Shown: positions 28,600 through 32,791 of the stretch, piece after piece
How the letters are laid out: every line of letters starts with the position of its first letter
How positions within the stretch are numbered: the stretch's first letter is position 1
Assembly (NCBI GenBank): GCA_000238815.2
Contig: AFXB01000010.1
Span: 810,501-874,500, forward strand
Origin: SAR116 cluster alpha proteobacterium HIMB100
GTDB taxonomy: Bacteria > Pseudomonadota > Alphaproteobacteria > Puniceispirillales > Puniceispirillaceae
Direction of reading: 5' to 3'
DNA length: 64,000 nt
Program-made: the position numbers and the translations under genes
Notes under the pieces: generated by a model
Databases searched by the model: none
What the model was told of the DNA's origin: nothing
What the model saw: only the letters and a program-made list of their open reading frames with translations

Positions 28600-29361
28600 T
28601 CACTGCCCGCCACAGACAGCACAGTTCGGATCAGGCGCGACTTCAATTTCTGTAAAGCTTGCGGATAAGCCATCATATAACATCAGCCGGCCAATAAGCG
28701 GCGCGCCTGTTCCAGTGATCAGCTTTATAACCTCTGCTGTCTGCAATGCGCCCATAACAAGCGTGGTTGATCCCAGAACACCTGCTGTTGAACATGACGG
28801 GGCCTGATCATAATCGAGCTCTGTTTGCGGGAAAATACAGCGCAGGCATGGGCTGTTTTCAGCCTGCGGGACGAAACAAGTAATCTGTCCGTCTGATCTG
28901 ACAGCCCCGGCAAAGACAAGGGCGATGCCATGGCTCTGGCATAAGTCATTCACAAGATAGCGTGTTTCTGCATTATCCGTGCAATCCACCACCAGATCAT
29001 GAGCCTTGATCAGATCGTCAGCAGTTTCAGCGCAGAATCTTTTGGTTTCGATCTGAAGGCTGATATCTGGGTTCAGAGCCTGTGCAAATGCTGCTGCACT
29101 CTCAGCCTTGTTCATGCCCAGCCTGTCCATCGTATGGGTAATCTGCCGGTTCAGATTGGTCAGTTCGACCTGGTCATCATCAACCAGAGTCAGATGCCCA
29201 ACACCTGCGCCGGCGAGCCCAGCAATAACAGGCGCGCCCAAACCGCCTGCCCCCAAGATAAGCACTTTTGCCTGAAGTAATTTTTTCTGACCTGGCTCGC
29301 CGATTTCCGGCATCACCACTTGCCGTGCGTAACGTTCAACCTCATGATCAGTCAAAATCAT
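28600..29361 (-). CDS. MoeB/ThiF/HesA-family adenylyltransferase
   Basis: Activates the C-terminus of a ubiquitin-like sulfur carrier (MoaD or ThiS) by adenylation for molybdopterin or thiamine synthesis. Nucleotide site [10 protein letters not shown] near residue 36, Arg finger region LNRQ, catalytic Cys region [11 protein letters not shown], and two zinc-binding CxxC pairs (CLRC, CAVC). 253 residues; no rhodanese domain. Starts with a 4-base overlap of the dut stop. Which carrier it serves cannot be told from this window. Confidence 0.9.
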
Positions 29362-29828
29362 GATATCTCTCCTGATGAGTTTTCATACAGGCCAGTTGAC
29401 CCGAAACCACCTGCCCCGCGGGCTGTCTCATCAAGCTCATCTGCAGTTTGGAAAGAAGCTTTCAGAACCGGGCTGAAAATCATCTGGGCAATCCGCATCC
29501 CATGTTCAATTGAAATTGTCTCTGTACCCAGATTGACCAGCAGAACTTTTATCTCGCCCCGATAATCGGCATCGATTGTGCCTGGCGCGTTGGCGACCGT
29601 CAGACCGTGTTTCAAAGCCAGGCCAGAACGCGGCCGAATTTGAGCTTCTACACCCTCTGGCATAGCCATAAACAAACCGGTTGGTACAGCAAGGCGAGCC
29701 GTAGGGGCCAGTGTTATCGGCCCATCTGGCAGCGCTGCTTGCAGGTCAACACCTGCAGACAGATCAGTCTGATAGGCTGGAAGGGGCAGGGATGAGGCTG
29801 CTTCATTTTGCTTCAGATAAATTTTCAT
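29358..29828 (-). CDS. dut: Deoxyuridine 5'-triphosphate nucleotidohydrolase
   Basis: Splits dUTP to dUMP, keeping uracil out of DNA. All trimeric dUTPase motifs are visible in order: [26 protein letters not shown], and the C-terminal [10 protein letters not shown]. 156 residues. Its first 26 bases overlap the end of coaBC and its end overlaps the moeB/thiF-type gene, so all three are likely cotranslated; coaBC-dut is a widespread pair. Confidence 0.97.
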
Positions 29829-31245
29829 TTGTCTTTATCCACTGGTCGAGTTCAGAAATCAGCTGGTTTGCCAAAGCCTGTTTCGACTGATTAGGCCAGT
29901 CAATAATGTCTGCATCCTTGATCAGGCTGGCTTTATTCTGATCAGATCCAAATATACTATGATCCGGATCAGCTGCGATATGGTTGGCAATGATCCAGTC
30001 ACAGCCCTTACGGATACGTTTTTTTTGGGCATTGGCAATTAAATTATCCGTTTCGGCAGCAAATCCAATAACAAGGGACGGCCTGTTCTCTGCTGTGCTC
30101 AAGCTGGCCAGAATATCAGGATTTTCAGCCAAGCTGATATCTGGCGGGCCTTTGTCGTTTTTTTTCTGTTTATGTGTGGTCTCATTTTCCACATGCCAGT
30201 CTGCGACTGCGGCTGCACAAATGGCTATATCTGCGGGCAAATTGTCCTGACAGGCTGCATGCATCTGCCGGGCAGTCTCGACCTTGACCACTTTGACATT
30301 CTGCGGATCTGGCAAGCTGACAGGTCCGCTTATAAGAGTAACTCTTGCGCCATGCGCCGCACAGGCGGCAGCCAATGCATGCCCCTGTTTACCCGAAGAA
30401 CGATTAGCAATATAGCGCACCGGATCAATCGGCTCATGTGTTGGCCCGGATGTGATCAAAACATGCCGGCCAGCCAGACAGCCCTGACCCTCTTGGAAGA
30501 ATCGCTCTGCTGTTGCTGCGATCTCTACAGGCTCAGCCAACCGCCCTCGCCCCACCTCACCACAGGCAGTATCTCCGCTGACCGGCGAGACGACATGCAC
30601 GCCGCGGCTGACAAGGATATCCATATTGGCTTGCGTTGCCGGATGATGCCACATATTCGGATTCATGGCCGGCGCCAACATTATCGGCGCAGCGGTGGCC
30701 AGACATAAGGTTGAGGCTAGACAATCAGCCAGCCCGTGGCTGAGTTTGGCGATAAAATTGGCTGTTGCCGGGGCAACCAGAACAAGGTCTGTATCACGCG
30801 CCAGCCGGATATGACCCATTTCGGCTTCATCAGTCAGCGAAAATAACTCAGTGTAGACCTTCTCGCCGGTTAGTGCGGACAGGCTGAGCGGTGTAATAAA
30901 CTGCTGCGCAGACTCTGTCATTACGCCGCGCACCGCAAAGCCTCTGTCCATTAACCGGCGGGCCAGATCAAGCCCCTTATAAGCGGCGATGCCCCCGTTG
31001 ATGATCAGCAGAACCTGCCGTCTTGTCTCGGCATTCAGCGCAATCAGCTGCAGCCTGTCCTGATCAAACTGCCAGCCCTTCTGTTGCAAGGCGGCTTGGA
31101 TCAAAGCCATCTTTTCACGAGGGATTTCAGCACGCTTTACATAGTTTGACAATGCACTTGGTCCGACCCCTAACAAGGCCTGGACAGCCTCACGGCCACC
31201 TAATTTATGCAGAATCTGTTCGAAGGCCTGGGCAAAGTCAGACAT
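29803..31245 (-). CDS. coaBC: Bifunctional CoaBC with an N-terminal helix-turn-helix domain
   Basis: Phosphopantothenate-cysteine ligase / phosphopantothenoylcysteine decarboxylase, two steps of coenzyme A synthesis. CoaC part at about residues 76-255 has INGGIAAYK, the His in [15 protein letters not shown] and the Cys in [12 protein letters not shown]; CoaB part from about 265 has [20 protein letters not shown] and GFAAET. Unusually, residues 1-75 form an extra domain with a Cro/YdaS-like helix-turn-helix pattern ([20 protein letters not shown], then [13 protein letters not shown]). E. coli CoaBC starts directly at the CoaC domain. ATG at 31245 is preceded by GAGGTG; an upstream GTG at 31284 would run through the palindromes. 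480 residues. Confidence 0.95.
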
Positions 31246-31260
31246 AGGCACCTCATTATT

Positions 31261-31287
31261 TTCACAAATTTGTGAATTATTCACAAA
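31261..31287. promoter_or_regulatory. Overlapping palindromes (putative operator) before HTH-coaBC
   Basis: Three copies of the half-site TTCACAAA: plus orientation at 31261-31268, inverted at 31269-31276 and plus again at 31280-31287. They form a 16-base perfect palindrome and a second palindrome with a 3-base centre. They lie 15-42 bases upstream of the coaBC ATG; a TATGAT -10-like hexamer (minus strand, 31294-31299) sits just beyond them, so a bound protein would block the start of transcription. Confidence 0.65.
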
Positions 31288-31294
31288 ATCAGAA

Positions 31295-32791
31295 TCATAC
31301 TAGCCCAAAATGACCATAAAACGCAATCGCGATCAGACCTGCAATGATAAGCCAGGGTAATTTGGACGACGCACGCGGCGGTTCTTCAGGGCGCTCCAGC
31401 CTGTCCAGCAAAGCAGGGAGTGCATGATAAAGTCTGGTCAGATCACGAGCCACCTGTTTTGCCTGAGCAATGAGGGTCACCTCAGATGTCATCCAATTTT
31501 CGGCCAATGGCCGGGCCAGATGCCACATATCGGCTTGCGGATTCAGGGTGCGCGCGACCCCTTCGGCCATCATCATTGTTTTTTGCAGCAGATTGAACTG
31601 AGGCTGAACAGAAATTTCAAAATGCGAGGATATCTGCAAGATTTGGCCTAATACTGTGCCCAGAGAAATATCTTCCAATGCCTTACCCATGACCGGGTCA
31701 ACCACACTGCGCAGGCTTTGTGCAAACAAGGGCAGAGGCACATGCTCAGACAGCATGCCAGCGTCATGATGCAGGCGGGCAACCAGGGCATAATCTCTTT
31801 CCAAAATGGCCATTAATAACCTGGCCAGGAACAACCGATCTGAAAAATCAAGCTGGCCCATAATACCGAAATCAATAGGAACTAACGTGCCATCTGCAGT
31901 GACAAAAATATTACCGGGATGCATGTCTGCATGAAAATAGCCGTCTCGGAAAACCTGATTGAAAAAGCTGGTCGCAGCGATCTCTGTGATATTTTCAATA
32001 TCATGCCCGGCAGCCTTCAGGGCGGCTACATCATCAATGCGCACACCATCTATCCATTCTGTGACCAGAACATAACTACTGGTACGTTCAAGGTCAATAA
32101 ACGGAATACGGATACCTGCATCTGCGGCCAGATTTTCGGCCAGCTTTCCCCCTGCTGCTGCCTCCATCCGCAAATCAAGTTCAATTTTTGAGATAGATTC
32201 AAACTGGTCAACTGCAGTCACCAGCCGCAGACGGCGCAAAGCAGGCGCAACAGTCTCAGCCAGTCGGGCCATAGTTTTGAAGAACAGAATATCGCGCCGC
32301 ATCTGTTTATGAATACCTGGCCGCAGGATTTTCACAGCCACCAGCTGGCCATCAGGTCGTCTGGCTTTATGAACTTGTGCGATAGAGGCTGCAGCCACCG
32401 GAACATCATCAAAATCGCTGAACAGCTCATCAACCGATTTGCCAGAACTGTCTTCGATAATTTTGCGGGCTTTCTGGCCATCAAAAGCGGGTAATTTGTC
32501 CTGTAATTGGACCAGCCCGCCCGCCAGCTCCGGGCCAATCAGGTCAGCCCGTGTGGCTAAGGCCTGACCAAATTTGATAAATCCTGGCCCTAACGCCTGA
32601 AGCGCTTCACATAAGGCTTGTCCGGCATCTGTGCGGGCGCTGCGCGAGACAATCAGAAAATTCAGCAGCCTCAGCAACTGCGCTAACCATCCAGGCCAAA
32701 GGTCAAGCTTTGCCAAATGCCCGAGGATTCCGGCTCTGCCAAGAATAAACCCCATCCGCGGGAGCCGCCAGAGCACCAACAAAACAGCCAT
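31295..32791 (-). CDS. ubiB: UbiB/ABC1 atypical kinase, ubiquinone biosynthesis
   Basis: Membrane-associated protein kinase-like ATPase required for coenzyme Q synthesis. KxGQ-type motif in FIKFGQALATR near residue 72, Ala-rich loop in VAAASIAQVHKA, VAVKILRPG, and catalytic-loop HADMHPGNIFV with IDFGIMGQL near 290-310. C-terminal hydrophobic segment (about 475-495) is the membrane anchor. 498 residues. Start codon overlaps the ubiE stop by one base. Confidence 0.95.
   Translation of the reverse strand: MAVLLVLWRLPRMGFILGRAGILGHLAKLDLWPGWLAQLLRLLNFLIVSRSARTDAGQALCEALQALGPGFIKFGQALATRADLIGPELAGGLVQLQDKLPAFDGQKARKIIEDSSGKSVDELFSDFDDVPVAAASIAQVHKARRPDGQLVAVKILRPGIHKQMRRDILFFKTMARLAETVAPALRRLRLVTAVDQFESISKIELDLRMEAAAGGKLAENLAADAGIRIPFIDLERTSSYVLVTEWIDGVRIDDVAALKAAGHDIENITEIAATSFFNQVFRDGYFHADMHPGNIFVTADGTLVPIDFGIMGQLDFSDRLFLARLLMAILERDYALVARLHHDAGMLSEHVPLPLFAQSLRSVVDPVMGKALEDISLGTVLGQILQISSHFEISVQPQFNLLQKTMMMAEGVARTLNPQADMWHLARPLAENWMTSEVTLIAQAKQVARDLTRLYHALPALLDRLERPEEPPRASSKLPWLIIAGLIAIAFYGHFGLV

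Follow-up and report, generated by a model that had tools for sequence, protein, structure and literature searches.

The window, by which we mean the whole 64 kb stretch of DNA analysed (window genome size: 2.46 Mb), carries a coaBC gene located between an ABC1/UbiB-like gene and a dUTPase gene (Table 1). The translated protein product exceeds the equivalog cut-off of TIGR00521 over residues 75-466 (Bitscore: 416.4; cut-off: 219.7), and His145, Asn195 and Cys228 of the CoaC part, which we take to be the catalytic residues, are invariant across 18 aligned CoaBC proteins. By sequence, the window CoaBC is an intact bifunctional enzyme of predicted activity, as a first-pass annotation of this DNA had proposed from the presence of the His, Asn and Cys residues. 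A GAGG precedes the ATG at 31245. Two GTG codons in the same frame, at 31251 and at 31284 (the second within a palindrome upstream of the gene), represent possible alternative starts, the use of which would merely lengthen the N-terminal extension. The dUTPase gene overlaps the end of coaBC, and control of coaBC could therefore extend to it.

Table 1. Features of the coaBC locus (positions in the window) and related loci in other genomes (L numbers).
Feature	Coordinates	Strand	Basis or remark
coaBC, HTH-CoaC-CoaB fusion	29803..31245	-	480 aa ORF; TIGR00521 match
N-terminal extension, residues 1-75, predicted Cro/XRE-type HTH domain	31021..31245	-	profile, AlphaFold, Foldseek, aligner
Predicted recognition helix, residues 29-38	31132..31161	-	AlphaFold/DSSP helix; invariant residues
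CoaC (decarboxylase) part, approx. residues 77-244	30514..31017	-	PF02441 residues 77-244
CoaB (synthetase) part, approx. residue 257 to stop	29803..30477	-	PF04127 residues 257-442; 1u7u match 259-465
Predicted operator GTGAA-N3-TTCAC-N6-GTGAA, three alternating half-sites	31261..31284	-	comparative pattern search
Gap of 49 bases between ABC1/UbiB-like gene and coaBC ATG	31246..31294	-	contains predicted operator
ABC1/UbiB-like gene upstream of coaBC	31295-32791		PF03109
dUTPase gene downstream of coaBC	29358-29828		overlaps coaBC end at 29803-29828
Second palindrome, f3 genomes	L319:1984, L320:2027, L321:1986		flanks differ, half-sites kept
HTH-enzyme fusion loci	L156-L159, L161-L163, L165, L170, L174, L175, L210-L212, L280, L289-L294, L300, L305, L307, L308, L312

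The enzyme is preceded by an extension of 75 residues, which the first-pass annotation had correctly placed at 31245 down to 31021 and considered to contain a helix-turn-helix (HTH) pattern. Compared alone against Pfam, the extension matches YdaS_toxin (16.5 of 30 bits), P22_Cro (15.9 of 30.2), Phage_CI_repr (16.4 of 22), HTH_3 (13.9 of 23) and HTH_17 (12.8 of 27), with none of these HTH families reaching its curated cut-off for the window protein. Residues 9-60 also match the NCBIfam model NF046037, carph-isopro (Bitscore: 27.6; e-value: 2.4e-6), yet below its curated cut-off of 38 bits. A profile built from 11 sequences matches the Cro protein of Xfaso 1 (3bd1; e-value: 4.6e-7) and the hybrid XPH1 (e-value: 1.4e-5). 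In the AlphaFold model of the domain alone, helices span residues 3-15, 18-25, 29-38 and 43-55 (mean pLDDT: 86.9), and near-identical helices, the first ending at residue 14, are found in the full-chain model, where the placement of the domain is uncertain (pTM: 0.52). The helix at residues 29-38, in which S30, A31, S33, N34 and Y35 are invariant in the 11 sequences, is taken as the putative recognition helix. Foldseek with the domain alone yielded no match at E<=0.001, its top five rows being Cro proteins or a Cro hybrid (E from 0.11); the sequence profile is the better evidence for the domain. A structural aligner, applied as a re-look at Foldseek's own candidates, gave Z values that the tool itself rates as middling (3bd1: Z 6.5, 2.1 Å over 58 residues; 6on0: Z 4.8). 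The extension is thus predicted to adopt a Cro/XRE-type HTH fold with a recognition helix, and both the modelled helices and the Cro relatives found by profile bear out the HTH of the first-pass annotation, which was to be abandoned if the predicted structure lacked such a helix. MPnS and HppE, enzymes with HTH-like parts, rank near 3bd1, and HEPD is also among the structural matches; an HTH fold within an enzyme can lack a regulatory role, and that of HppE and MPnS is not known to be regulatory.

A CoaBC protein was found in 56 of 61 genomes of SAR116/Puniceispirillales, and the HTH domain, whole or in part, is present at the N-terminus in 54 of these 56 loci, the remaining two (L133 and L134) being cut by contig ends. 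A census with the domain profile A3, which includes rows from the genomes searched and whose matches were read in part, detected the domain in 110/136 genomes of the order, in 20/20 genera and in 42 of the 43 order genomes with a completeness of 90% or more and a contamination of 5% or less. The near-complete genome without the domain is apparently G058, in which coaBC runs into a contig end. The frame holding the best match is 352-547 residues long in 108 of the 110 genomes, but 43 residues long in G444, where the contig ends, and 35 in G501. Among the best 80 of at least 591 similar CoaBC loci, the extension is present in 11 and absent in 69; some of the 11 carry the label SAR116 cluster bacterium or Candidatus Puniceispirillum, and NCBI taxonomy places Puniceispirillum within Puniceispirillales. 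A domain match was also found in 27 of 385 genomes of the class, five of them in this order, and the other 22 show no CoaBC match in the frame. The domain is retained across families in which the enzyme part shares just 44-49% identity. Since the frame is open and all four families (f1 to f4) retain the extension, a mis-called start was rejected, and this conservation throughout the order likewise removes the doubt, raised in the first-pass annotation, that the extension might not be conserved among homologues.

Upstream of coaBC, the palindrome which the first-pass annotation had given at 31261-31287 is present in the sequence, and its standing as a candidate site is strengthened by comparative pattern counts across the genomes of the order. 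On the coding strand, the predicted operator lies 15 bases ahead of the coaBC ATG. Its three-half-site form, GTGAA-N3-TTCAC-N6-GTGAA, has 16 matches in 14 of the 61 order genomes, all located 13-43 bases upstream of coaBC matches, while the same pattern read backwards has 0 matches in the 61 genomes. In the window genome, the other two matches to an 18-letter version with up to three mismatches both fall inside long open frames, and the 64 kb window holds three more places at three mismatches, a number also given by shuffles. The inverted pair TTCAC-N5/6-GTGAA occurs within 100 bases upstream of 25/52 genes with the domain versus 0/69 without it (in shuffled sequences: mean 0.05, maximum 1, by an author-written segment-swap approximation of the dinucleotide shuffle, used also for the f4 and HTH-fusion shuffles below), four of the 56 loci (L099, L105, L133 and L134) having been left out of the upstream counts due to contig ends. 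By family, the pair was found in 16/32 (f1), 6/8 (f2), 3/3 (f3) and 0/9 (f4) upstream regions. At least two half-sites are present upstream in 39 of the 43 f1-f3 loci versus five of the 69 controls without the domain, and within 130 bases the f1-f3 loci carry one half-site in two cases, two in 14, three in 20, four in four and five in three. Counted against autoregulation are the 18/43 f1-f3 upstream regions without an exact inverted pair, the 4/43 with fewer than two half-sites in 100 bases, and a sigma-70-like promoter search at the site, which found none on the coding strand and one match on the other strand. For the relatives, the start was assigned to the nearest ATG preceding the HTH or, failing that, to a GTG/TTG, and distances to the start are therefore approximate. 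A chance palindrome was rejected, given the confinement to coaBC, the absence of the reversed pattern and shuffle counts near zero. Direct TTCA repeats, spaced about one helical turn apart, can be observed upstream of coaBC in three f1 loci without the inverted pair (L092, L098 and L100).

The location of the site in a short gap, the confinement of its three-half-site form to coaBC and its association with the fused domain point to autoregulation. The HTH might instead serve the structure or oligomerisation of the enzyme and not bind DNA, a role like that seen in some phosphonate enzymes, with the palindrome belonging to another regulator. Such a reading, which would accommodate the structural matches to MPnS, HEPD and HppE and the exact pairs missing from 18 upstream regions, is considered improbable, as across the 61 genomes the three-half-site form is found solely beside the coaBC of the fusion clade, the 69 CoaBC genes without the domain have no such pairs, and a separate one-gene regulator kept in step with the domain would be less economical. 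A site for a CRP/FNR-like global regulator, with half-sites TGTGA/TCACA, is more improbable still. The halves of the CRP consensus are spaced by 6; TGTGAATAATTCACA resembles these halves, but its spacing is 5, and the form at coaBC is not spread across other promoters. A CRP-type site was rejected because the N6 form of these halves occurs at a single place in the genome, away from coaBC.

Variants of the site accompany the other families. Both f2 and f3 carry TTCAC-N5-GTGAA upstream of coaBC, and the extended form TTCACA-N3-TGTGAA occurs at 15 places in 11/61 genomes (reversed control: one place), ten of them upstream of coaBC (all f2/f3), three between ShlB-type/TPS-domain genes and two inside genes. 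The three intergenic copies belong to three of the five f3 genomes searched and lie between genes for a ShlB-type transporter and a TPS-domain exoprotein, as assigned by Pfam for the transporter genes of L320 and L321 and the exoprotein gene of L320. They favor a wider regulon, with the fused HTH not mainly governing coaBC, a reading that overlaps with autoregulation and does not exclude it. We regard it as unlikely, since the other five exact TTCAC-N5/6-GTGAA places in the window genome fall inside long open frames, on which ground a strict wider regulon in that genome was rejected.

In f4 (L126-L130, L135, L136, L236-L248 and L250-L253), SNW replaces SNY in the recognition helix, and GTGAA pairs are absent (0/9 in one count, 0/18 in another). 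The family was at first sight without a site, a view rejected when a recount gave TGAA-N4-TTCA upstream of coaBC in 24/27 loci, versus 0/43 in f1-f3 and 0/69 controls (other spacings of 2 to 8: none above 1/27; shuffled f4 stretches: mean 0.6, maximum 3/27), the pattern having been picked post hoc from the same sequences and the 27 loci representing few genera. In part of f4 this palindrome begins at the apparent stop codon of the preceding gene, and elsewhere it looks coding; protein coding could explain those that seem to lie in the last codons of that gene, and the f4 site is weaker evidence than the f1 site. Helix and site types covary: loci with an [SP]ALSNY helix (SALSNY, one PALSNY) have the N6 form in 16/18 and the N3 array in 14/18, whereas the N6 form is found in 0/34 with other helix types. 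The [IV]SNY helix is accompanied by the N5 form in 9/25 and the N6 form in none, and the SNW helix by none of the N5, N6 and N3-array forms (0/9 each). This covariation follows clades and hence supports, without proving, a match between domain and site, all counts being taken over related genomes, uncorrected for kinship.

Several other alphaproteobacterial enzymes likewise carry an HTH domain of this group at their N-terminus (Table 1). Partner domains were identified by Pfam in ten proteins chosen from 93 loci, the remainder being our own reading. They comprise a histidyl-tRNA-synthetase-like protein (labelled HisZ by us), CarA, aspartate/ornithine carbamoyltransferase (PyrB, likewise our label), an amino-acid kinase (ArgB, likewise our label), a GlmU-like protein, 3-phosphoglycerate dehydrogenase, prephenate dehydratase, NAD(P)H-hydrate dehydratase/epimerase, a dehydrogenase E1 component and a zinc-type alcohol dehydrogenase. 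The HTH of the prephenate dehydratase fusion is HTH_3, as is that of L300. Upstream of HTH-CarA, GGGA-N7-TCCC is present in 5/5 regions read, two of the five being near-identical, and TTCAT-N5-ATGAA is found within 160 bases upstream of 6/10 HTH-HisZ-like genes (shuffles: mean 0.03, at most 1), preceding the chosen start by about 136 bases in three cases and by about 20 in the other three; both patterns were picked post hoc from the same sequences. For the other HTH fusions, the best single inverted repeat per upstream region was mostly non-significant against shuffles one by one, and their palindromes are therefore leads only. An inverted repeat with 14-base arms upstream of the HTH-HisZ-like frame in L288 could equally be the terminator of the previous gene. 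The same domain also heads many membrane proteins that we label mitofilin-like (L256-L285 and, in part, L303-L311), with GTAC-rich repeats upstream of the genes in L281, L303, L304, L306 and L311. NF046037 matches occur in 115 of the 385 class genomes and exceed the cut-off in 72; the name carph-isopro, which is absent from open-licence PMC papers, by itself suggests that its curators had met the domain on enzymes.

Enzyme-repressors such as BirA, PutA and NadR are a known kind of protein. BirA is a group II biotin protein ligase with a winged helix which targets the bio operon, while PutA, NadR and the archaeal RbkR likewise combine a metabolic enzyme and a DNA-binding regulator in one chain. 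The SAR116 CoaBC, by sequence and model, joins an intact enzyme and a DNA-binding-type domain in one chain, and upstream of its gene lies a candidate site conserved in many, not all, genomes. It differs from BirA in its Cro-type HTH and in having, on the present data, chiefly its own gene as putative target, and from PutA, NadR and RbkR in fold, pathway and lineage. The Cro proteins of Xfaso 1 (3bd1) and N15 (6on0) share the HTH fold of the extension, but are free-standing phage-type repressors. The dodecameric Mycobacterium CoaBC (6TGV) is also a CoaC-CoaB protein, matched from window residue 73 onwards (phmmer e-value: 1.4e-70), but according to passages of PMC7794376 it has no HTH extension, its CoaC comprising residues 1-179. 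The same passages describe the mycobacterial CoaBC as a dodecamer with CoaC at its core, and the CoaB activity of M. tuberculosis as inhibited by CoA and acyl-CoAs/CoA thioesters (PMC7794376). Among the matches listed from the open-licence PMC literature there is no title or abstract on HTH-CoaBC or on such fusions, and PMC5343134 mentions neither CoaBC, coenzyme A, pantothenate nor the word fused. The enzyme-repressor principle is hence known, and its CoaBC example was not found described in that literature.

We suggest that CoaBC probably acts both as a bifunctional enzyme and as a transcription regulator of its own gene. The fused domain, its conservation across the order and the sites accompanying it are computed observations, from which we infer physical binding, repression as its sign, joint action of the HTHs within an oligomer and control by a ligand. 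The CoaBC oligomer would hold its N-terminal Cro-type HTH domains together, these would bind paired half-sites (GTGAA/TTCAC in the window) just upstream of coaBC, and transcription of the gene would be lowered once CoaBC, and perhaps its CoA product, is sufficient. Should the protein be a dodecamer here too, each particle would have 12 HTH domains and could grip several half-sites at once. More tentatively, and with somewhat less than even confidence, CoaBC may be a CoA-responsive self-repressor, in which CoA or acyl-CoA bound in CoaB causes the oligomer to rearrange, several of its HTHs then clamping the half-site array and shutting the gene; it may then be one of repeated alphaproteobacterial fusions of Cro-like domains to biosynthetic enzymes, each with its own palindrome and forming a minimal one-gene feedback circuit.

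If autoregulation holds true, CoA synthesis would be under transcriptional feedback by the enzyme itself, in an arrangement maintained across a marine bacterial order. The predicted coaBC sites are short and defined, and as such suited to direct testing, and the further HTH-enzyme fusions suggest that feedback without a separate regulator gene can be built simply and has been built repeatedly.
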